From positions 1-64,000 of the forward strand of contig JAGQYM010000005.1 in assembly GCA_020436085.1 (NCBI GenBank): a stretch of 64,000 bases of DNA, written 5' to 3'. Origin of the DNA: Cyclobacteriaceae bacterium. Its GTDB lineage: Bacteria > Bacteroidota > Bacteroidia > Cytophagales > Cyclobacteriaceae. The notes under the pieces were generated by a model. It was not told the DNA's origin. It saw only the letters and a list, made by a program, of their open reading frames with translations, and ran no database searches. The position numbers and the translations under genes are program-made. Positions 53,764-63,678 of this stretch are shown here, in pieces; within the stretch, counting starts at the first letter, position 1; every line of letters starts with the position of its first letter.

Positions 53764-54474
53764 TTAGGTTTTTGTTAGCGCTTTCTTAGCCCTTTGCTGC
53801 AGCTGCTCGAATATTGTCACGTTCATCAGAATGAGTAGTAACCCGTAGAAGGTATCTTCAACCGGTATAGTCCCCATCCTTATTCCTAAGTTCTCAGCAT
53901 CATTGTACCACACTACCTGGTTTTCAATTCCTGAACCTGTCAGTATTCCGTTGACAAGAAAGAAGGGTATGAGGATAAAAAGAAATGCGACATAGAACTT
54001 TGGGAGAAAAGTTACTTTCAATCGAAGACTTAGGAACAACAAGAAGCCTCCGCAAAGAAAGAAAGTTAGAGAAGTATACCATTTGTCTGTGTTGAGTGCC
54101 GCCACGAGGATGAGTAGGGAGGCTAAAATGTAGGTTATAGCCTTTTCGTATTTGTTGGAAATTCTTGAGCCTAAAAAGTATACAACAGCCTCATAAGTAA
54201 AAACGCAAGCGTAGGGAATGCAAATGAAAAATAGAATTTCTTCAAGAGGCAATGTAGAAAAGTAAATGCCCGTAAGGTAAGTTGGATTAAATCCCCATAC
54301 ACCCATCGTGGTAAACCATTCGTCCCAGATAAGGAAGAAGGTAGCTGTAAGTAGGATCGCTGGCCAAAGGCTGTTCCATTTTTTGGAAAAATTCGCGCGT
54401 GGATGAAAACTGAACATGAATGGCAGGGCAATCGAAGCCAAATCAATAAAGAGGTAGAGGTAGTTGGACTTCAA
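53764..54474 (-). CDS. crtY: Lycopene beta-cyclase, fused CrtYcd type
   Basis: A 236-residue integral membrane protein with about six or seven helices and two copies of the CrtYc/CrtYd-like repeat, the first with WDEWFTTMGVWGFNPTYLTG and LPLEEILFFICIPY, the second with NAENLGIRMGTIPVEDTFYG-like sequence. Such proteins cyclise the ends of lycopene to beta-ionone rings. The start is TTG at 54474, 4 bp after crtZ; an ATG occurs only 19 codons in. It is the last gene of the carotenoid operon. Confidence 0.88.
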   Translation of the reverse strand: MKSNYLYLFIDLASIALPFMFSFHPRANFSKKWNSLWPAILLTATFFLIWDEWFTTMGVWGFNPTYLTGIYFSTLPLEEILFFICIPYACVFTYEAVVYFLGSRISNKYEKAITYILASLLILVAALNTDKWYTSLTFFLCGGFLLFLSLRLKVTFLPKFYVAFLFILIPFFLVNGILTGSGIENQVVWYNDAENLGIRMGTIPVEDTFYGLLLILMNVTIFEQLQQRAKKALTKT

Positions 54475-54478
54475 GTTA

Positions 54479-54970
54479 CTATTGAGTTTCCTGACGTGTC
54501 TCCTTCATTTTGAATTGCCTCGGTTCATATTTGGGAGGCGCGTAGAGAAATCCAAAGGCTTCGCAATCCTCTTTGCTATGCTTGCTATGGTGAACGTAGT
54601 GAGCATTAATCATGCGCTGGAGGTACTTGCTTCTCTTCGATGGTCTCCACTTGATTCGCTGGTGTACGATAATATCGTGAAAGACCACATAGAAAACACC
54701 GTAACATAGAATACCCAGCGCTACAGCCAGTAGGTAAGGATTATAGTTTATCAGACTGGCATAATAGAAGAGACCTATGGAGGGTAAACTAAATACAACG
54801 CCAAACCAATCGTTCTTTTCCAGCGCTTGATGATGTACAGAATGATGTGATTTGTGCCATACCCATAGAAATCCGTGCATCACATATTTATGTGTAAACC
54901 AAGCCACAAATTCCCAGAAGAGAAAAGTGCCAATGGTAATGACTGCACATGCAAAAATGGTTAACCACAT
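54479..54970 (-). CDS. crtZ: Beta-carotene hydroxylase (fatty acid hydroxylase superfamily)
   Basis: A 163-residue membrane di-iron enzyme with histidine clusters THKYVMH, HKSHHSVHH, HDIIVH and HYVHHSKH, the pattern of CrtZ-type hydroxylases. It adds 3-hydroxyl groups to beta-rings, so crtY plus crtZ would give zeaxanthin. Its start lies 2 bp from the SRPBCC gene stop and its stop 4 bp from crtY, consistent with one operon. Confidence 0.9.
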   Translation of the reverse strand: MWLTIFACAVITIGTFLFWEFVAWFTHKYVMHGFLWVWHKSHHSVHHQALEKNDWFGVVFSLPSIGLFYYASLINYNPYLLAVALGILCYGVFYVVFHDIIVHQRIKWRPSKRSKYLQRMINAHYVHHSKHSKEDCEAFGFLYAPPKYEPRQFKMKETRQETQ

Positions 54971-54972
54971 AC

Positions 54973-55452
54973 CTATGAACTTTGGAGTGCTTCTTTTTCG
55001 AAATGATCTTTTAGCACACCGAATCGATAATCAAAAATAGCATTAACCTGTCGCTCAACAAATAGCCAATTGGCAAGCCTGCCCAGAATGCCGAAAGGAA
55101 TGGCGTAGTTAACTTCATCAGTCATTTCCACACCATTGCCAACTTGTTTGAAGTGATGCTGATGATGCCATAAGGCGTATGGACCAAAACGTTGTTCGTC
55201 TACAAAATAATTTGGTTCAGCTACATGCGTGATTTCAGTGACCCATTGCAAACGTATGCCAGGGGGCACAGTAACTTTGTATCTAATCAATTGACCTGCG
55301 TAGGTCTTTTCTCCCCCAGAAGCATAAAGTATTTGAAAGCCCATGCTTGATGGTGTGATCTTGCTCAAATTCATTGGTGTACTAAAAAAAGACCAGGCTT
55401 GTTCTAATGAAATAGGCAAAATTTGTTTTCGTGTGAGAGTGTAAATTTTCAT
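54973..55452 (-). CDS. SRPBCC (START/Bet v1-like) protein
   Basis: A 159-residue protein of the SRPBCC fold: an N-terminal strand (KIYTLTRKQILPISLEQAWSFF), a beta-sheet with GIRLQWVTEITHV, and the C-terminal helix FDYRFGVLKDHFEKEALQ. The fold holds hydrophobic ligands. Genes of this kind occur in Bacteroidota carotenoid clusters, where a role in carrying a carotenoid or intermediate is conceivable but not shown. The ATG at 55452 is preferred over a GTG one codon upstream. Confidence 0.7.
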   Translation of the reverse strand: MKIYTLTRKQILPISLEQAWSFFSTPMNLSKITPSSMGFQILYASGGEKTYAGQLIRYKVTVPPGIRLQWVTEITHVAEPNYFVDEQRFGPYALWHHQHHFKQVGNGVEMTDEVNYAIPFGILGRLANWLFVERQVNAIFDYRFGVLKDHFEKEALQSS

Positions 55453-55484
55453 CACTCATCTAACAACAGTGCATTCGAAATGTT

Positions 55485-56798
55485 TTATTTCGTCTGATCC
55501 AGCGCGACCTTATAGGCTTCTAAAACTCTTTCCCTTGCGAAACTATGATCGACTATCGGAGGTGGGTAATCTGATGATTCAAATTCAGGCACCCATTTTT
55601 TAATGTACTTTCTTTCCGGGTCGAATTTTTCGGTTTGGAGATAAGGATTGAACACTCGGAAGTATGGGGCTGCATCACAACCACTCCCCGCAGCCCATTG
55701 CCATCCTCCATTGTTTGCCGCCAAGTCGAAATCAAGAAGCTTTCTTGCAAAATAAGCTTCACCCCATCGCCAATCGATGAGCAAATGTTTGGTTAGGAAG
55801 CTGGCAACGATCATTCTAACCCGGTTGTGCATAAAGCCAGTCTCATTCAATTCTCTCATACCGGCATCAACAATGGGATATCCCGTTTCGCCTTTGCACC
55901 AGGCCTCAAACTCATCTTTGTCATTTCGCCACTCGATTTGGTCGTATGCCGGCTTGAAGGCTTTCTCCACTTTTGGAAAATGCCATAAGATCATATGATA
56001 GAACTCTCGCCAAATGAGTTCGTTAAGCCAGACTTCATTTTTCTTTAGCGCAATAGCAACAAGTTGTCGAATGCTCACGGTCCCGAACCTGAGATGAACA
56101 CTGAGTTTGGAGGTTCCTTCAATGCCTGGATAGTCTCTTTGCTGATGGTAATGTTTAATCACTTCAGATTTGATTACTCGTTCCGGAAAAGAACCTGCAG
56201 CTATTTCGAAACCAAGCTCATCCATTGTTGGCATCGGAAGGGGAGTCGTTTGAAAAAGGTTATCGAAGTATTTCTCTGTTGGGTACGGTTTGTAATAAAA
56301 GGGCTTAAGGGTCGCCTTCCATTTTTTGGAATAGGGGGTGAAGACGGTATAAGGTGATCCGTCATCCTTCAAAACCTCATCTGTTTCGAAAATAACCTGA
56401 TCTTTGAATGACTTGAAAGGGATATTCTTTTTACTTAGAATTTTTTCCAAAAGGAAATCTCGTTCCCTTGCATAGGGTTCGTAGTCGTGGTTGGTGTAGA
56501 CTGCGTTCGGAGAAAAGCTGTTAAAGAATTTTTCAGGGGTGTTATGAACCACCAGCAAGGAGCTGCCATGACTCTCCAGTTCAGTTTTGATATGAGCCAG
56601 AGATTGATAGATGAAGGTGATTCGTTTATCATCCTTGTCTTCCAGTTTTTCGAGAATGTTGATGTCGAAGATGAAAACACATAGAACCTTATTGTTCTCC
56701 TTGAGCGCATGATATAGGCCGGCATTGTCGGTCAGCCTCAGGTCTCGCCTTAGCCAAAAGAGGGTGGTGTCTTTTGTTATTGTTTTAGATAAGTTCAT
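55485..56798 (-). CDS. phr: Deoxyribodipyrimidine photolyase / cryptochrome family protein
   Basis: A 437-residue flavoprotein. The N-terminal Rossmann domain (TLFWLRRDLRLTDNAGLYHAL) binds the antenna, and the C-terminal helical FAD domain contains WREFYHMILWHFP, DAGMRELNETGFMHNRVRM and WQWAAGSGCDAAPYFRVFNP. It uses blue light to split cyclobutane pyrimidine dimers. It lies between the SRPBCC and idi genes inside the carotenoid operon, so pigment and light-driven DNA repair would be induced together. A regulatory cryptochrome cannot be excluded, but the sequence is of repair-enzyme type. Confidence 0.9.
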   Translation of the reverse strand: MNLSKTITKDTTLFWLRRDLRLTDNAGLYHALKENNKVLCVFIFDINILEKLEDKDDKRITFIYQSLAHIKTELESHGSSLLVVHNTPEKFFNSFSPNAVYTNHDYEPYARERDFLLEKILSKKNIPFKSFKDQVIFETDEVLKDDGSPYTVFTPYSKKWKATLKPFYYKPYPTEKYFDNLFQTTPLPMPTMDELGFEIAAGSFPERVIKSEVIKHYHQQRDYPGIEGTSKLSVHLRFGTVSIRQLVAIALKKNEVWLNELIWREFYHMILWHFPKVEKAFKPAYDQIEWRNDKDEFEAWCKGETGYPIVDAGMRELNETGFMHNRVRMIVASFLTKHLLIDWRWGEAYFARKLLDFDLAANNGGWQWAAGSGCDAAPYFRVFNPYLQTEKFDPERKYIKKWVPEFESSDYPPPIVDHSFARERVLEAYKVALDQTK

Positions 56799-56824: not shown

Positions 56825-57346
56825 TTACACGGTCTTAGTAAGCTCTAATATTTCAGGGCGACTAAGAATGATCTTGAACCAGTGTGAGTACTCGTGAGGG
56901 TGAGACTGGACTTTGTTTTTTAAGTCGTTGGTATCTATAAATTTCCAATCCGAAATTTCACTCTCATTGATTTGAGGTTCGCCATCAAATGACCCTATGT
57001 AGACATGGTCAAGCTCATGCTCGATCAGGTTGTTTGAAAATTGAATTTTGTACTCGAATTTGAAGGCAAACGTTGGGTTGGATACAATTCCCAGTTCCTC
57101 TTCCAGTCTTCGGCCAACTGCTTTTTCCATTGATTCAGCAGGTCTTGGATGACTGCAGCATGTATTGGACCATAGTCCTCCACTGTGGTACTTGCTTGAG
57201 GCGCGTTTTTGGATCAGCATCTCCCCACTGGAATTAAAAAGCAGCACGCTAAAAGCGCGATGCAATACTCCTTTGCGATGGGCTTCCATTTTTTCCATCG
57301 TGCCCAACTCATTGTCGTTGCTGTCTACAAGGATTACCTTCTCCAC
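56825..57346 (-). CDS. idi: Isopentenyl-diphosphate delta-isomerase, type 1
   Basis: A 173-residue Nudix-fold protein with catalytic Cys in NTCCSHPRP, the Nudix-like helix AVGRRLEEELGI, catalytic glutamate in the HELDHVYIG region and a final WFKIILSRPEI. It interconverts isopentenyl and dimethylallyl diphosphate, feeding the pathway to phytoene. The start is GTG at 57346, overlapping the TAG of crtB as TAGTG. A downstream GGPP synthase (crtE) is not in the window. Confidence 0.92.
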   Translation of the reverse strand: MEKVILVDSNDNELGTMEKMEAHRKGVLHRAFSVLLFNSSGEMLIQKRASSKYHSGGLWSNTCCSHPRPAESMEKAVGRRLEEELGIVSNPTFAFKFEYKIQFSNNLIEHELDHVYIGSFDGEPQINESEISDWKFIDTNDLKNKVQSHPHEYSHWFKIILSRPEILELTKTV

Positions 57347-58188
57347 TAGATTAAGTTAAGCTGATGTTTTAAATATGAATAAAAGAGAATCCTGAACTTA
57401 TGTCTGTTTCTTATTCTGATCCTTCTCTTCATTACATGTTCAGAAGGAGTATTTTTTATTTTCTTGAACAAAGCAAGATAGTACAGATAGGCAACATAGA
57501 CACCAAACCGTGCGCCTCTTGGCAACTCTTTGATTCCGAGGTATCCTTGATGAAAATCAGCTGCGATATCACTCTCAATTTTGGTCTTATCGCTTTCGTC
57601 AAATTTTTCCAGATCGATACCTGGAAAGTAGGATCTGCCCATTCCATTGAAATCTGCATTCAAATCTCTTAGGAAATTAATCTTTTGAAAAGCCGATCCT
57701 AGCTTCATGGCCATGGGTTTCAGCCTTTCATATATTTTTTCATCACCCTGGCAAAACACTTTCAAGCACATCAGACCGACAACTTCTGCAGACCCCAAAA
57801 TGTATTCCTGAAAAGTACTTTGATCGTATTCTTTTTGGCCTAGATCCATCTTCATGCTTGCCAGAAACTGATCAATGAGCGTACGATTGATATTGTATTT
57901 GTTGACCGTTTGTTGAAAGCTATGGAGGATGGGGTTCATGCTGATCCCTTGCTCGATCGCTTCGTAAGTGTCCTCCTGAAATTTCTTTAGCAGCGTTTCC
58001 TTTTCATGATTGTGAAAAGTGTCCACTATTTCATCAGCAAAACGTACAAAGCCATAAATACTGTAAATAGGATCGCGAAGCTTTTTTTCGAGGCAAAATA
58101 TGCCAAGGGAGAAGGAGGTGCTATAAGCGTTTGTAGTGAGCTTACTACACCTCACGGCTACTTTGTTATAGAGTGACTCGTGGCTCAT
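57346..58188 (-). CDS. crtB: Phytoene synthase
   Basis: A 280-residue trans-isoprenyl diphosphate synthase-like enzyme with both Asp-rich motifs: RFADEIVDTFHN near residue 50 and LRDLNADFNGMGRSYFPG near residue 172. It condenses two geranylgeranyl diphosphates to phytoene. It overlaps crtI by 4 nt and idi by 1 nt. Squalene synthase is the alternative family member, but the pairing with crtI makes phytoene synthase nearly certain. Confidence 0.93.
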   Translation of the reverse strand: MSHESLYNKVAVRCSKLTTNAYSTSFSLGIFCLEKKLRDPIYSIYGFVRFADEIVDTFHNHEKETLLKKFQEDTYEAIEQGISMNPILHSFQQTVNKYNINRTLIDQFLASMKMDLGQKEYDQSTFQEYILGSAEVVGLMCLKVFCQGDEKIYERLKPMAMKLGSAFQKINFLRDLNADFNGMGRSYFPGIDLEKFDESDKTKIESDIAADFHQGYLGIKELPRGARFGVYVAYLYYLALFKKIKNTPSEHVMKRRIRIRNRHKFRILFYSYLKHQLNLI

Positions 58189-59660
58189 TGTCCGATTCGT
58201 TTTATCAACTCCTGTGCTACTACCTGGCCCGAAATAAGTGACGGTGGTACTCCAGGACCAGGTACAGTGAGCTGCCCTGTATAAAACAGATTTGATACCC
58301 TTTTGTTTAGAATTGATGGCTTTAAATTGGCAGTTTGACCGATTGTGTTTGCAAGGCCATATGCATTCCCTTTAAAGGAGTGATAATCTTCTATAAAGTT
58401 GCGATGGGCATAACTCTTTTTGTAGGTGACGTGTGGCTTGATCGATTGACCAGTCAATTTCTCAAGCCTGGTCAGGATCATTTCATAATAACGCTCCCTG
58501 GTCGCCTCATCATCGGTAAGTCCTGGCGCGACAGGAATCAGTATAAAAAGATTCTCTGAGCCAACAGGAGCAACGGTCTCATCTGTTTTTGACGGACAGC
58601 AAACATAGAAGAGTGGAGCAGTGGGCCACTGGGGAGACTCATATATCTCCTGTGTATGCTGCTGAAAATCTTCGTCAAAGAATAGATTATGATGTAAAAG
58701 GTTATCCAGCTTCTTGTTCACCCCCAGGTAAAATATGATACTCGAAGGAGCGAGTTTTCGGGACTGCCAATAGGATTCAGAGTATTTGCGGAATTGACGT
58801 GGCAAGAGGTGTTGCTCGACATGGTGATAGTCAGCTCCTGCAACTACAGCATCCACCTTTACGGACTTACTTCCTTTAATTTGAATTTCCTTCACCTTGG
58901 TGCTATTCATGGTTAGAGCGCTCACTTCCGAATTGAATTCGAATCGAACTCCTTTCTCTTTGGCAAGCGAAACCATTGCGTCTACGATTTCATACATTCC
59001 ACCTTTTGGATACCAGGTCCCCAGCTTCATGTCTGCGTAATTCATGAGACTGTAAAGAGCAGGTGTATCCTGCGGGGATGCGCCCAGGAATAAAACAGGA
59101 AACTCTAATAGCTGAATTAACCGTGGAGATTTGAAATAACTCCTGATGTGTTTGCTGATGGACTGGAATACGTGAAGCTTGAAAACACCTCGTGCCAATC
59201 TAAGATCCAATAGCTCCGTCACAGAAAGACCGGGCTTGTAGACAAGATCATTTATTCCAACCTGGTATTTATACTCGGCTTCTTTAAGAAACGTCTCCAG
59301 CTTGGTGCTGCTTCCGGGCTCTTCCTTTTCGAAAAAATAATTTAAGTCCTGCGGTTTTGCGGGTATATCCCAAACGGTGTCTTTGGAGAAGAATACGCGA
59401 TAGGAGGGATCGAGTCTTACAAGATGGTAGTAGTCTGACGCCTTTTTTTCAAATCTGTTGAAGTACGACTCAAATACATCAGGCATCCAATACCAGCTAG
59501 GGCCCATGTCAAATGTGAAACCCTCAGCTGTGAACTTCCGGGCCCTGCCACCAGGCGTTGCATTTTTTTCATAGATCGTAACATCGTAGCCTTCGGATGC
59601 AAGACTAGTGGCGGCTGACAAACCAGCGAAACCAGAACCAATTACCGCAATTTGCTTCAT
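58185..59660 (-). CDS. crtI: Phytoene desaturase
   Basis: About 491 residues of the CrtI family: N-terminal FAD-binding AVIGSGFAGLSAATSLAS with the second part YEKNATPGGRARKF, and a C-terminal carotenoid-desaturase signature ending LTVPGPGVPPSLISG. It converts phytoene stepwise to lycopene. I chose the ATG at 59660, which puts the FAD motif at the expected distance; a GTG at 59681, abutting the sigma-factor stop, would add seven residues. First biosynthetic gene after the sigma gene. Confidence 0.93.
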   Translation of the reverse strand: MKQIAVIGSGFAGLSAATSLASEGYDVTIYEKNATPGGRARKFTAEGFTFDMGPSWYWMPDVFESYFNRFEKKASDYYHLVRLDPSYRVFFSKDTVWDIPAKPQDLNYFFEKEEPGSSTKLETFLKEAEYKYQVGINDLVYKPGLSVTELLDLRLARGVFKLHVFQSISKHIRSYFKSPRLIQLLEFPVLFLGASPQDTPALYSLMNYADMKLGTWYPKGGMYEIVDAMVSLAKEKGVRFEFNSEVSALTMNSTKVKEIQIKGSKSVKVDAVVAGADYHHVEQHLLPRQFRKYSESYWQSRKLAPSSIIFYLGVNKKLDNLLHHNLFFDEDFQQHTQEIYESPQWPTAPLFYVCCPSKTDETVAPVGSENLFILIPVAPGLTDDEATRERYYEMILTRLEKLTGQSIKPHVTYKKSYAHRNFIEDYHSFKGNAYGLANTIGQTANLKPSILNKRVSNLFYTGQLTVPGPGVPPSLISGQVVAQELIKRIGQ

Positions 59661-59681
59661 GGATGGCTTTTTGAAAGCCAC

Positions 59682-60182
59682 TTATAAGCTACCAATTTTT
59701 TTCTGTATTTCTTTCCTGGCATGGAAAATCCTGTTCTTAACTGTGCCAATAGGGATGTTCAGATGATCGGCAATTTCGTGGTACTTGTATCCTGTAGTAT
59801 ACATTTTGAACGGAATCTGAAGCTCATCACGGATCTCGTTCACGTTCTTCCACATTTCTTTGAACTCCACAGATTTTTCTGGGCGATTGAAAGTGTGATT
59901 ATCTGCAACGTTAAGGAAGTACAACTCCTTGGTATCGTCTGTTGAGGTCTTGGCAAGTTTCATTTTGCGATACTTGTTGATATATGTGTTTCGCATGATC
60001 GTGAAAAGCCAACCCTTTAAGTTGGTGTCCTCCCTGAACTTATCTCGGTAGGTGAGTGCTTTGAGCATAGTATCCTGAACAAGATCCTGAGATTCTTCCC
60101 GGCTTCTTGTAAATCGATAGGTAAACTGCCGTAGGGTGCTTTGAAGGCTGGTCAGTTGGCTGGAGAATTCAGTTGCCGTCAT
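59682..60182 (-). CDS. ECF sigma factor
   Basis: A 166-residue sigma-70 family protein with region 2 (RSREESQDLVQDTMLKALTY, GWLFTIMRNTYINKYRKMK) and region 4 (YKYHEIADHLNIPIGTVKNR, HARKEIQKK). It is of the short ECF type without an obvious anti-sigma gene next to it. Its start codon overlaps one of two inverted repeats between it and the CarH-like repressor gene, and it is directly followed by crtI. It probably directs transcription of light-induced genes, possibly including this operon (inference). Confidence 0.9.
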   Translation of the reverse strand: MTATEFSSQLTSLQSTLRQFTYRFTRSREESQDLVQDTMLKALTYRDKFREDTNLKGWLFTIMRNTYINKYRKMKLAKTSTDDTKELYFLNVADNHTFNRPEKSVEFKEMWKNVNEIRDELQIPFKMYTTGYKYHEIADHLNIPIGTVKNRIFHARKEIQKKIGSL

Positions 60183-60215
60183 TTGTTTAATATTTTATTT
60201 GTAAAATTAAACAAA
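60182..60215. promoter_or_regulatory. Candidate CarH operator 1 (proximal)
   Basis: Arms TTTGTTTAAT (60182-60191) and ATTAAACAAA (60206-60215) are exact reverse complements separated by 14 bp. The outer edge touches the start codon of the ECF sigma gene, so a bound repressor would block its transcription start region. Same architecture as operator 2. Confidence 0.6.
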
Positions 60216-60244
60216 AAGCTATCACAATCGGCATTAAATCTAGT

Positions 60245-60278
60245 TTTGTTTAATGAAAAATAAATAAAATTAGACAAA
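60245..60278. promoter_or_regulatory. Candidate CarH operator 2 (distal)
   Basis: Arms TTTGTTTAAT (60245-60254) and ATTAGACAAA (60269-60278) pair with one mismatch, again with a 14-bp gap and 34-bp total. It starts 63 bp from operator 1, close to six DNA helical turns, so both would face the same side. Confidence 0.6.
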
Positions 60279-60282
60279 AAGG

Positions 60283-61149
60283 CTATAGCAGGGATAGAAG
60301 GCTTCTGGCGTCCTTAAATAGCTTGAAATTGGGGTTCTCAGAATCAATTTGGTTTGAGGAGTACCCCGTAGCAAGGACCTTGATTTTAGGCAGGTTTTCC
60401 AAGGTATAATCAATGTAGGCTTGGGTCTTTTTCCCCTTTGAAGACACCGTCAGCGCGGTGACAAGAAAGTCTGGACGGTGTTTTTTACATACAGATACGA
60501 GGTCATTCTGGGGAACGTGCTGTCCGAGGTAAAACGTTTTGTAGCCATGCTTCCGAAGGATGTAATGATAGAACAGAAGGCCCAATTCATGAAGCTCATT
60601 TTCGGGTAGGAAAAGGACCACTCTCTTGGCGTCTTTGGAAGCGAATGGAAGTGAGTCGATGGCTACGATTATTTTCTGTCGTATCAGGTTGGAGATAAAA
60701 TGTTCCTGCGCAGGATCGATGTTTCCGGTTTGCCAAAGGATCCCTATTTTTTCCAGAAATGGGTAGGTGATATCGGTTATCATTTTTTCAAAACCGAATT
60801 TCACGATGAGGTGAGAAAGAATTTTTTCAAACTGTTCTTCCTCCATATCCACCATGGCAATGATCAATTGCTCAATGAAAAGATCGGCCTCTGATTTCTG
60901 TGTAGTGAGTTGCACGATCTCTGATTGTATCTGGCTGTCAGTCATCTCCGCGATCTTGGAGATCTTCATGCCGTGATTGTTTAGCACTGACACATTGATG
61001 ATTTTCTTCAAATCATCGTCAGAATAGAACCTGATATTGGTAGGCGTTCGTTGGGGAATAATCAATCGATGTCTCTTTTCCCAAATGCGTATGGTATGAG
61101 CTTTTATCCCCGATAGGGTTTCAAGCTCTTTGATTGAATATCTTCCCAT
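60283..61149 (-). CDS. CarH/LitR-like MerR regulator with B12-binding photoreceptor domain
   Basis: A 288-residue protein: MerR-type DNA-binding domain (residues 1-72, YSIKELETLSGIKAHTIRIWEKRH), a helical linker, and a cobalamin-binding domain. In the latter W139 and E149-H150 form the W-x9-EH motif of CarH, and H187 in ELHELG is the likely lower cobalt ligand (ExHxxG for the usual DxHxxG). CarH binds DNA as a dark-state adenosylcobalamin tetramer and is released when light breaks the Co-C bond, so it acts as a repressor of carotenoid genes. It precedes the sigma and crt genes on the same strand, with two inverted repeats in the gap. Confidence 0.87.
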   Translation of the reverse strand: MGRYSIKELETLSGIKAHTIRIWEKRHRLIIPQRTPTNIRFYSDDDLKKIINVSVLNNHGMKISKIAEMTDSQIQSEIVQLTTQKSEADLFIEQLIIAMVDMEEEQFEKILSHLIVKFGFEKMITDITYPFLEKIGILWQTGNIDPAQEHFISNLIRQKIIVAIDSLPFASKDAKRVVLFLPENELHELGLLFYHYILRKHGYKTFYLGQHVPQNDLVSVCKKHRPDFLVTALTVSSKGKKTQAYIDYTLENLPKIKVLATGYSSNQIDSENPNFKLFKDARSLLSLL

Positions 61150-61245: not shown

Positions 61246-63678
61246 ATGCCTGATAGGCTTGCAATAGGTAAAAACTGGTTTCAACAAAAAGGTTGGGAAC
61301 CGTTTCCGTTTCAAACAGAGGCCTGGCAGAACTATCTCGATGGCTACAATGGGATGGTTAACGCACCCACCGGTAGCGGCAAGACCTATTCACTGATAAT
61401 TCCGATCCTGACAGAGGCGATGGAAAACCAACCCGGAGGGAATCAGGGACTGCAGGCGATCTGGATCACTCCCATCCGTGCATTGGCAAAAGAAATTCAA
61501 TACGCATCAGAAAAAGCGATCAGTGACCTCGGGTTGCCATGGGAGGTAGGCATCCGTTCGGGAGATACTTCGTTGGCCACAAGAAAACGTCAACAAGAGA
61601 AACCACCTCAGTTATTAATAACAACGCCCGAAAGTTTGCACCTCTTAATCGCTCAAAGAGGTTATCACAAATACTTTGAGAATCTAAAAGTGATCGTTGC
61701 GGATGAGTGGCACGAACTCATCGGATCGAAACGCGGTGTTCAGGTTGAGCTTGCCTTGTCTCGATTAAAAACGGTAGCAAAAAAATTGAAGGTGTGGGGA
61801 ATCTCAGCAACAATTGGCAATATGGATCAGTCCCTTCAGGTGCTCCTGGGCGACTACCATAAACGGGGCAAATTCAAAGTGGTAAAGGCTAACATCGAAA
61901 AGCGTATCGAGATACATTCAATTATGCCGACCGATCACGAGAAACTTCCCTGGACTGGGCATGTTGGTATTCACCTTTTGGACAAGGTCGTTGAAATTGT
62001 AAAAAAGAGTAGCGCGACACTGATTTTTACGAACACGAGGTCTTTTGCAGAAATCTGGTATCAGAAAATATTAGACAAGGCACCAGAACTCTCTGGGCTG
62101 ATCGCAATGCATCATGGCTCCATTAGCCAGGAGCTGCGAAACTGGGTGGAGGAGCAATTGCACTCCGGTAAAATCCGGGCCGTAGTCTGTACCTCAAGCC
62201 TGGACCTGGGCGTAGACTTCAGGCCAGTGGAGACTGTGGTCCAGGTAGGTGGCCCAAAAGGAGTAGCTCGATTTCTTCAACGGGCTGGCCGCAGCGGACA
62301 TCAACCCGGGGCAGTCAGCAAAATATATTATTTGCCAACTCATGCTCTGGAACTGGTAGAGGCCGCGGCACTGCGTGAAGCAATGAATCGCAAAATTGTC
62401 GAGCAGCGTGTACCTTACCTGCGATCTTTTGATGTGTTGGTTCAGTACCTCGTCACGCTAGGAGTAAGCGAAGGTTTTGTTGGGGATGAAATACTGAAAG
62501 AGGTGAGGGGTACTTATTCATATTCCTCAATCACAGACGATGAGTGGAAATGGATTCTAAGATTCATTACTACAGGGGGTGCTGCCCTTACTGCCTACGA
62601 TGAGTTTCGGAAGGTGAATTTTGAAAAAGGTAGATATAAAGTTGAGAACGGAAGGATCGCACATAGACATCGGCTGTCGATCGGCACCATAGTAGGTGAT
62701 ACCTCGCTGTTGGTGCAATATGTTTCGGGAAAGACACTTGGGTCGATAGAAGAATCATTCATAGCCGCCCTTAATCCCGGTGATGTATTTTGGTTTGCCG
62801 GCAGGAGCCTTGAGTTGGTAAGGGTAAAAGACATGACGGCACAAGTCAAGCGTTCGTCAAGGAAGTCCGGCAAAGTGCCTTCGTGGCAAGGTGGTCGAAT
62901 GCCCCTGTCTTCTGAGATGGGTGAAATGATCAGATTCAAAATCCATCAAAGCACAAAAGACCAATTTGACGATCCAGAAATGAAGTTTCTGCGCCCCATG
63001 CTCGAGTTGCAGAGTAAGTTGTCCCTTTTGCCCACTCAAAAACAATTCCTGATTGAATACCTGGAGTCCAAAGAAGGATATCATGTGATGATGTATCCGT
63101 TTGAGGGAAGATTTGTTCACGAAGGGATGGCAGCTTTGTTGGCTTACCGCATCGCACGTATTAGCCCCATCACCTTTTCTATCGCGATGAATGACTACGG
63201 CTTTGAGTTGCTGTCAGATCAGCCGATTCCCATTGAGGAGGCTGTCGAAACAGATGTACTCGGTTTGGATAATCTGCATTCGGATATCCAGGCAAGTATT
63301 AATTCCATCGAGATGGCGAGGCGCAAGTTCCGCGATATAGCCGCCATTGCCGGCCTTGTTTTTAAAGGATTTCCAGGGCAGCGTGTGCGGGACAGGCACC
63401 TGCAATCTTCATCCCAGTTGTTCTTCGAAGTCTTTCACGATCACGAATCGCACAATCTTCTTTTACTTCAGGCTTTTGAAGAAGTGATGGATTTTCAACT
63501 CGAGGAAAATCGACTGCGAAATGCACTGGAGCGAATCGCTCATCAAAAGATAGTGATCAAATATCCCGACAGGCCAACCCCTTTCGGACTTCCAATAATG
63601 GTAGACAGGCTCAGAGAGAAATTAACGTCTGAAAAACTGGAAGACCGGATTAAGAGAATGATTATTCAGTATGAGTAG
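61246..63678 (+). CDS. Lhr-like DEXH-box DNA helicase
   Basis: An 810-residue helicase with Walker A APTGSGKTYSLI near residue 40, TTPESLHLLI, the DEXH motif ADEWHELIGSKRG, SATIGN, and the second RecA domain with TSSLDLGVDFRPVETVVQVG and LQRAGRSGHQPG. A long C-terminal part (about 430-810) follows. It matches the ligase-associated DNA damage response helicase family, normally found next to an ATP-dependent ligase, an MBL exonuclease and PdeM. None of these is in the window. It diverges from carH and converges with the last gene. Confidence 0.88.
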   Translation: MPDRLAIGKNWFQQKGWEPFPFQTEAWQNYLDGYNGMVNAPTGSGKTYSLIIPILTEAMENQPGGNQGLQAIWITPIRALAKEIQYASEKAISDLGLPWEVGIRSGDTSLATRKRQQEKPPQLLITTPESLHLLIAQRGYHKYFENLKVIVADEWHELIGSKRGVQVELALSRLKTVAKKLKVWGISATIGNMDQSLQVLLGDYHKRGKFKVVKANIEKRIEIHSIMPTDHEKLPWTGHVGIHLLDKVVEIVKKSSATLIFTNTRSFAEIWYQKILDKAPELSGLIAMHHGSISQELRNWVEEQLHSGKIRAVVCTSSLDLGVDFRPVETVVQVGGPKGVARFLQRAGRSGHQPGAVSKIYYLPTHALELVEAAALREAMNRKIVEQRVPYLRSFDVLVQYLVTLGVSEGFVGDEILKEVRGTYSYSSITDDEWKWILRFITTGGAALTAYDEFRKVNFEKGRYKVENGRIAHRHRLSIGTIVGDTSLLVQYVSGKTLGSIEESFIAALNPGDVFWFAGRSLELVRVKDMTAQVKRSSRKSGKVPSWQGGRMPLSSEMGEMIRFKIHQSTKDQFDDPEMKFLRPMLELQSKLSLLPTQKQFLIEYLESKEGYHVMMYPFEGRFVHEGMAALLAYRIARISPITFSIAMNDYGFELLSDQPIPIEEAVETDVLGLDNLHSDIQASINSIEMARRKFRDIAAIAGLVFKGFPGQRVRDRHLQSSSQLFFEVFHDHESHNLLLLQAFEEVMDFQLEENRLRNALERIAHQKIVIKYPDRPTPFGLPIMVDRLREKLTSEKLEDRIKRMIIQYE

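Follow-up and report, generated by a model that had tools for sequence, protein, structure and literature searches.

The gap between carH and an ECF-type sigma factor gene in a Cyclobacteriaceae bacterium contains two inverted repeats that, on comparative sequence evidence, we regard as a real and conserved pair of CarH operators with an unusual, inverted geometry. The most surprising part of the result lies outside the window (the 64-kb stretch of DNA that was analysed), where the same putative operator stands before many rhodopsin genes. The window had previously been given a first-pass annotation based on its letters alone, and we report below how its proposals fared.

Two inverted repeats lie between carH and the sigma gene

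Scanning the window with the pattern TTTGTYTAAT-N14-ATTARACAAA recovered two copies without a mismatch, 34 bp each and with starts 63 bp from each other, so that the design, the positions and the start-to-start distance given in the first-pass annotation were all reproduced. When up to three mismatches were allowed, the window still gave two matches, whereas 100 shuffles averaged 0.04 and never gave more than 1. On the minus strand, the arms read TTTGTCTAAT / ATTAAACAAA in the upstream site (O1) and TTTGTTTAAT / ATTAAACAAA in the sigma-proximal site (O2). Both sites are downstream of carH and upstream of the sigma gene, in a gap of 100 bp, and O2 does reach the sigma start codon as annotated, its final base being the A of the ATG (an overlap of one base). 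Genome-wide (191 contigs, 4.4 Mb), with up to three mismatches allowed, the pattern occurred at three places, compared with four for a reversed control pattern, and no copy beyond O1 and O2 rose above chance. The genome of this bacterium itself gives no support for a larger regulon, as the sole additional site (L003), with two mismatches, is located within an ORF of 345 aa and does not exceed chance.

The listed ORFs from the sigma gene to crtY overlap or are separated by at most 29 bp, and these genes presumably form a single transcript (Table 1). Over the operon, a sigma-70 promoter scan returned 12 hits, compared with 15.8 in shuffles, and a terminator scan returned 6, compared with 6.9. 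The names crtI and idi are ones that we take from family knowledge, and the crtZ label presumably applies, given the first-pass annotation and a histidine pattern. Divergent from carH is a large Lhr-type helicase gene (61246-63678), which adjoins carH in L005-L008 as well.

Table 1. Features of the carH-sigma-carotenoid locus, in window coordinates
Feature	Position	Strand	Basis
O1, upstream operator (putative)	60245..60278	-	Inverted T-nn-ACA half-sites; kept in relatives
O2, sigma-proximal operator (putative)	60182..60215	-	Pattern match; kept in relatives
carH	60283..61149	-	MerR DNA-binding domain and two B12-binding domains
ECF-type sigma factor, first gene of the operon	59682..60182	-	Pfam Sigma70_r2 and r4_2
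crtI, phytoene desaturase-like (presumed name)	58185..59681	-	Pfam Amino_oxidase/NAD_binding_8
crtB, phytoene synthase	57346..58188	-	Pfam SQS_PSY
idi, NUDIX isopentenyl-diphosphate isomerase-like (presumed name)	56825..57346	-	Pfam NUDIX
DNA photolyase	55485..56798	-	Pfam DNA_photolyase and FAD_binding_7
SRPBCC-type protein	54973..55455	-	Weak Pfam Polyketide_cyc2, below cut-off
crtZ-like hydroxylase (presumed label)	54479..54970	-	No Pfam match at 1e-3; histidine pattern
crtY-type lycopene cyclase	53764..54474	-	Pfam Lycopene_cyc

The repeats accompany CarH in related genomes

We collected 150 distinct loci that were fetched by the CarH protein alone (the CarH-only set) and counted as a site any match scoring at least 13 of 16. 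The sigma gene was the first recognised gene downstream of carH in 105 of these loci, among which 99 carried a site (15.8 expected) and 69 had at least two (1.7 expected); in total, 196 sites were found in the 150 loci, compared with 22 expected. Paired repeats beside carH-sigma-crtI, whose absence from relatives would have counted against the first-pass annotation, persist there; Algoriphagus marincola DSM 16067 (L145) and Marivirga sericea DSM 4125 (L190, with a CarH identical to that of L043) are examples of relatives that have the pair. No gap site was found in 41 of the 150 CarH-only loci. A mixed set, the counts of which are inflated by loci fetched for holding the motif, comprised 161 loci (113 sigma-downstream, 107 with a site and 74 with at least two); its site counts are superseded by those of the CarH-only set, and we use it for the arm-offset tallies, the columns from 130 anchors, and the full-promoter, -7 box and autoregulation counts. 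The 80 named loci are the best 80 among the scan matches listed.

The position of the sites was not uniform. Neither side of carH held a site in Emticicia (L150, L161), Arundinibacter (L165), Cyclobacterium (L126) or Carboxylicivirga linearis (L139), and in Spirosoma (L169) and Fibrisoma (L182) the site was located upstream of carH only. General autoregulation by CarH was considered and rejected, given that a site occurred within 300 bp upstream of carH in 15 of 159 mixed-set loci, compared with 87 just downstream.

In a sample of 395 Bacteroidia genomes, the motif (at most one mismatch) was present in 160 of the 253 genomes with a CarH profile match at 1e-25 and in 6 of the 142 without one (odds ratio 39), whereas a reversed control motif was present in 17 and 4, respectively; kinship among genomes and loci inflates such counts, and clusters formed at 65% identity still share ancestry. 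The perfect form, TTTGTTTAAYN14RTTAAACAAA, occurred in 81 of the 395 genomes and its reversed control in none. No match within one mismatch was found in 93 of the 253 CarH-positive genomes. The Markov shuffles were first order and resampled, not exact.

A known half-site in an inverted arrangement

Known CarH proteins use the half-site T-nn-ACA, and the arms carry it in inverted orientation. When sites were anchored on a perfect left arm (117 anchors in the CarH-only set, 130 in the mixed set), the four most informative columns beyond the anchor were A29, T26, A31 and C30, which together spell T-nn-ACA. Anchoring on the right arm was less clean: T5, T4, A7 and G3 led, with the top column (T5) falling on one of the nn positions, and the core's T2 was weaker. 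In the mixed set, arms in inverted orientation at offset 24 accounted for 108 pairs, compared with 0.56 per offset in shuffles, and inverted offset 3 was frequent too. Direct offsets of 11, 22 and 33 gave 5, 9 and 4 pairs (about 1 in shuffles), and tandem 11-bp direct repeats were therefore rejected as the main design. Direct offset 21 gave 45 pairs in the CarH-only set; in 28 of them a single arm had been read on both strands, and the other 17 lack this explanation. Columns located 11 bp from the cores and exceeding the information-content threshold were A/T positions only (mixed set).

Published CarH operators consist of 11-bp direct repeats, three or four of them in tandem, and the repeat nnnnTnnACAn, with its T-nn-ACA core, is shared by Thermus, Bacillus and myxobacterial CarH (PMC8156234, PMC9304148). 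This tandem arrangement is typical of the members studied and does not define the protein. The first-pass annotation had called the operator unfamiliar, which holds for the geometry but not for the half-site, since the latter is that of Thermus, Bacillus and Myxococcus CarH. The putative operators thus have a known half-site in a dominant arrangement that is not known from other CarH operators.

Paired sites are helically phased and overlap a promoter in relatives

Neighbouring sites up to 110 bp apart formed 74 pairs in the CarH-only set, of which 41 were spaced at 42-46 bp and 15 at 62-65 bp, the class to which the window belongs with its 63 bp; the remaining 18 were spaced at 20-25, 33, 53, 59 and 105-108 bp. 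With each distance counted once per 65%-identity CarH cluster over the range of 28-110 bp, and with eight periods tried, periodicity was strongest at 10.5 bp (R 0.67, n=28), compared with 0.24 at 11.5 and 0.08 at 12; assuming a uniform null across the eight periods, its probability is ~5e-5. Including overlapping sites (spacings below 28 bp) gave R 0.64 (n=34). The helical phasing proposed for the window's pair therefore recurs in relatives as a 10.5-bp period of site spacings.

A full promoter sequence, TTG-N18-22-TAnnTTTG, was located on or beside the sigma-proximal site in 60 of 107 mixed-set loci and on or beside the upstream site in 7 of 74. Of the 42 loci of the 42-46 class, 33 had the -7 box within the sigma-proximal site, near +16 (+16/17), but these represent only 4 clusters; in the 62-65 class the box overlapped the left arm of that site at -4 in 8 of 15 loci (4 clusters). 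In 40 of the 55 loci of these two main spacing classes, the -7 box followed the start of the upstream operator by 58-61 bp (32 of 40 and 8 of 15, respectively, in the CarH-only set); 3 of the other loci were placed differently, and 12 had no strict box. On this evidence, the position of the upstream site appears to be fixed, with the sigma-proximal site shifting by about two helical turns (~20 bp). Binding on one face with possible looping had been proposed from the window; the phasing agrees with the first part, but looping is not needed, because the upstream operator starts at this distance from the -7 box in most relatives of the two main spacing classes. The strict TTG-N18-22-TAnnTTTG promoter is absent from the window, and the promoter there is a candidate and not a proven one, because its -7 position reads GCTTTTTG.

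The window CarH retains cobalamin motifs but lacks the Thermus histidine

Pfam assigned MerR_1, B12-binding_2 and B12-binding, in this order, to the window CarH, the last with 31.4 bits against a cut-off of 32.1 (0.7 under). The best PDB sequence matches were 3whp (4.7e-19, 'Probable transcriptional regulator') and 5c8d (5.7e-19, CarH). A structure model built from a 24-sequence alignment (mean pLDDT 88.8) matched Thermus CarH 5c8e best (E 4.8e-17, TM 0.61 over the whole chain), with 5c8d also among the best structural matches, and chains comprising the B12 half alone reached a target-normalised TM of ~0.8. The adenosyl-capping motif Wx9EH is present, and the cobalamin ligand motif ExHxxG reads ELHELG at residues 185-190. 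The domains, motifs and structural matches all agree with the annotation of the protein as CarH-like. We surveyed these motifs in 50 of 54 family matches (G058, G037, G005 and G049:C2 were left out) and found Wx9EH in all 50 and ExH in 49; strict ExHxxG occurred in 16, and the last residue was Ser (ExHxxS) in most others.

The residue after the Trp of Wx9EH, which is His132 in Thermus CarH, is Gln in the window CarH and in 41 of the 50 family sequences, none of which has His. In Thermus, His132 forms bis-His ligation and has been linked to the light-state ligand switch; the H132A variant was mostly tetrameric after light, and the same paper cites an earlier, contrary report of disassembly (PMC10442372). 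The position varies naturally, and SasPcob, a cobalamin photoreceptor, has Gln there (PMC11796333). Judged by its sequence, the Gln leaves the light step of the window CarH uncertain. The bacterium can probably make AdoCbl, because its genome has a cobalamin adenosyltransferase, a gene also present in 9 of 14 control genomes. Two loci carry diverged CarH homologues: in L050 the His of the cobalamin motif is lost, and in L053 the motif reads EIHQLK and crtI is directly downstream without a sigma gene. Both of these homologues are possibly B12-independent, like CarA.

A putative composite operator and its competing explanations

We consider it likely that O1 and O2 constitute a composite operator of the adjacent CarH, through which AdoCbl-CarH represses the sigma-crt operon in the dark and light releases it. 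The repeats are read as CarH operators because the motif tracks CarH and the sites lie between carH and sigma, and the choice of CarH as their regulator, made already in the first-pass annotation, is consistent with co-occurrence, position, half-site and geometry. The model builds on what the genomes display directly, namely the sites with their half-site, phasing and conservation alongside carH and, in relatives, the promoter overlap; CarH binding, its oligomeric state, its release by light and the window promoter are what we infer. In the dark, AdoCbl-CarH would bind the four inverted T-nn-ACA half-sites of O1 and O2, a number equal to that of the DNA-binding domains in a tetramer. The upstream site would be just upstream of the -33 element and the sigma-proximal site over the -7 box and the start region, and RNA polymerase would be kept off the sigma-crtI-crtB-idi-photolyase-SRPBCC-crtZ-crtY operon. 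Light would cleave the Co-C bond of AdoCbl, upon which CarH would leave the DNA, and the sigma factor and the photoprotection genes would be made.

The repeats could bind a CarH that is not a light receptor but a B12 or redox sensor, or one that is B12-independent like Myxococcus CarA. The absence of His at position 132 from the whole family sample and the second B12 domain just below its Pfam cut-off point in this direction, but Wx9EH and ExH are nearly invariant in the family, and Wx9EH and ExHxxG together are said to define CarH (PMC8156234). The Gln of SasPcob (PMC11796333) and the suitability of photolyase and carotenoid targets for light argue further against this reading, which we regard as improbable. 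Were the repeats instead to serve the ECF sigma factor as targets, or to act as promoter elements for the operon, the overlap of the sigma-proximal repeat with the -7 box in relatives would be accounted for, as would the place of sigma as first recognised gene downstream of carH in 105 of 150 loci. However, a symmetric 34-bp palindrome suits a dimeric regulator and not a sigma factor, the arms hold the CarH half-site, the presence of the motif tracks carH, and sites are also found before rhodopsin genes and, in L056 and L069, directly before crtI with no sigma gene between, which leaves this explanation with very little probability.

Another regulator of the same genomes might also bind the repeats, given that the link between CarH and the motif consists of co-occurrence, position and half-site and that 6 of 142 CarH-negative genomes have the motif. 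In G347, a CarH-negative genome with 77% completeness, the motif precedes a rhodopsin gene. This proposal is highly unlikely in our view, as carH adjoins the sites in most sigma-linked loci, the half-site is that of CarH, and the motif is rare in genomes without CarH.

Comparison with known CarH and LitR systems

The class I LitR/CarH proteins of Thermus thermophilus and Bacillus megaterium share domain order, Wx9EH, ExHxxG and fold with the window CarH, and their operators share the T-nn-ACA half-site and a location over a crt promoter. These operators differ in being tandem 11-bp direct repeats, whereas the half-sites here are inverted at offset 24 and frequently come in phased pairs; Thermus CarH differs further by its His132, where the window CarH has Gln. 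To our knowledge, no ECF sigma is the first gene of the repressed operon in the Myxococcus CarA/CarH system. In Streptomyces coelicolor, LitS is reportedly an ECF sigma factor that is linked to LitR and drives the crt genes, whereas in the window the sigma gene heads the crt cluster itself. The LitR of that species is likewise a LitR/CarH-type regulator, whose role is named in PMC9758184.

In Myxococcus xanthus, the CarA/CarH operator is a composite of ~55 bp over the -35 element that was first described as two inverted repeats, as found here, but was reinterpreted as three 11-bp direct repeats and two pseudo-repeats (PMC9304148). The class II LitR proteins of Pseudomonas (PplR1, PmlR2) resemble the present case in their spaced symmetric sites, TGTACA-N12-TGTACA, with two copies per promoter, one at the -35 region and one between the start site and the ATG, and the light regulon in P. 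putida includes photolyase and GTP cyclohydrolase I (PMC9758184). They differ in that no B12 photochemistry is expected, that half-site starts are 18 apart and not 24, and that the P. mendocina regulator partners with a short LOV protein. In Chryseobacterium lacus, carotenoids are light-induced and the regulator is a matter of speculation only (PMC7064467). Searches among openly licensed papers brought up no prior report of a Bacteroidota CarH operator sequence, and PMC5045206 names CarH solely in a reference. The repeats described here provide a concrete, searchable candidate sequence for this phylum, and their inverted geometry contrasts with the direct-repeat rule derived from Thermus, Bacillus and myxobacteria.

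The same repeat precedes rhodopsin and other genes

In relatives (L057-L079 and L194-L249), the repeat precedes or flanks fasciclin, DUF4397, pterin, SRPBCC, DUF2805-SDR and photolyase genes. We surveyed the flanks of sites scoring at least 15 of 16 that had an ORF of at least 80 aa within 400 bp on either side, divergent neighbours included; the resulting 86 loci come from among the matches listed and are not a random sample, and the ORFs were grouped into single-linkage families of which only representatives were scanned. The families flanking sites were sigma (31), fasciclin (13), crtI (12), SRPBCC (6), 6-pyruvoyl tetrahydropterin synthase (6), DUF4397 (5), carH (5), rhodopsin (4), photolyase (3), GTP cyclohydrolase I (2) and DUF2805 (2), followed by two more pairs and singletons. 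The genes flanked by the repeat in relatives are likely a light regulon.

For rhodopsin, 86 PF01036 genes from 84 Bacteroidia genomes (loci L195, L200, L206, L243 and L250-L335) were scanned over ~700 bp upstream, less at contig ends. A site scoring at least 14 of 16 was present upstream of 38 of the 86 genes, compared with 2.8 expected from shuffles; as controls, 30 downstream flanks gave 1 with such a site and 779 background tiles gave 18. At thresholds of at least 13 and at least 15, the counts were 51 (16.6 expected) and 19 (0.2 expected), respectively. Other arm offsets at score 14 were matched in 11 (offsets 18-20), 4 (28-30) and 6 (33-35) of the 86 regions. The window's own genome had no rhodopsin at E 1e-15, and in G017, a genus-mate of the window's bacterium, the rhodopsin gene has no such site.

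Rhodopsin expression was constitutive in one Dokdonia strain, and its regulation in flavobacteria is said to need further work (PMC3587595); the putative operator in front of rhodopsin genes suggests an answer that can be tested. The operator shared between carH and rhodopsin loci suggests that one light switch may serve both. In its widest form, the proposal is that CarH of Bacteroidia reads an operator code particular to it, in which T-nn-ACA half-sites are inverted at offset 24 and frequently occur as helically phased pairs, and directly controls a class-wide light regulon, which would comprise many rhodopsin genes together with those of the ECF sigma, photolyase, carotenoid, pterin, fasciclin and DUF4397 groups; we judge the chances for and against this to be evenly balanced. 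If it is true, a green-light B12 sensor would set the amount of rhodopsin made. CarH was detected in 83 of the 84 rhodopsin genomes, 33 of the 38 rhodopsin sites were no more than 200 bp away from the profile match, and the 38 site-bearing genes span 17 families by family labels.
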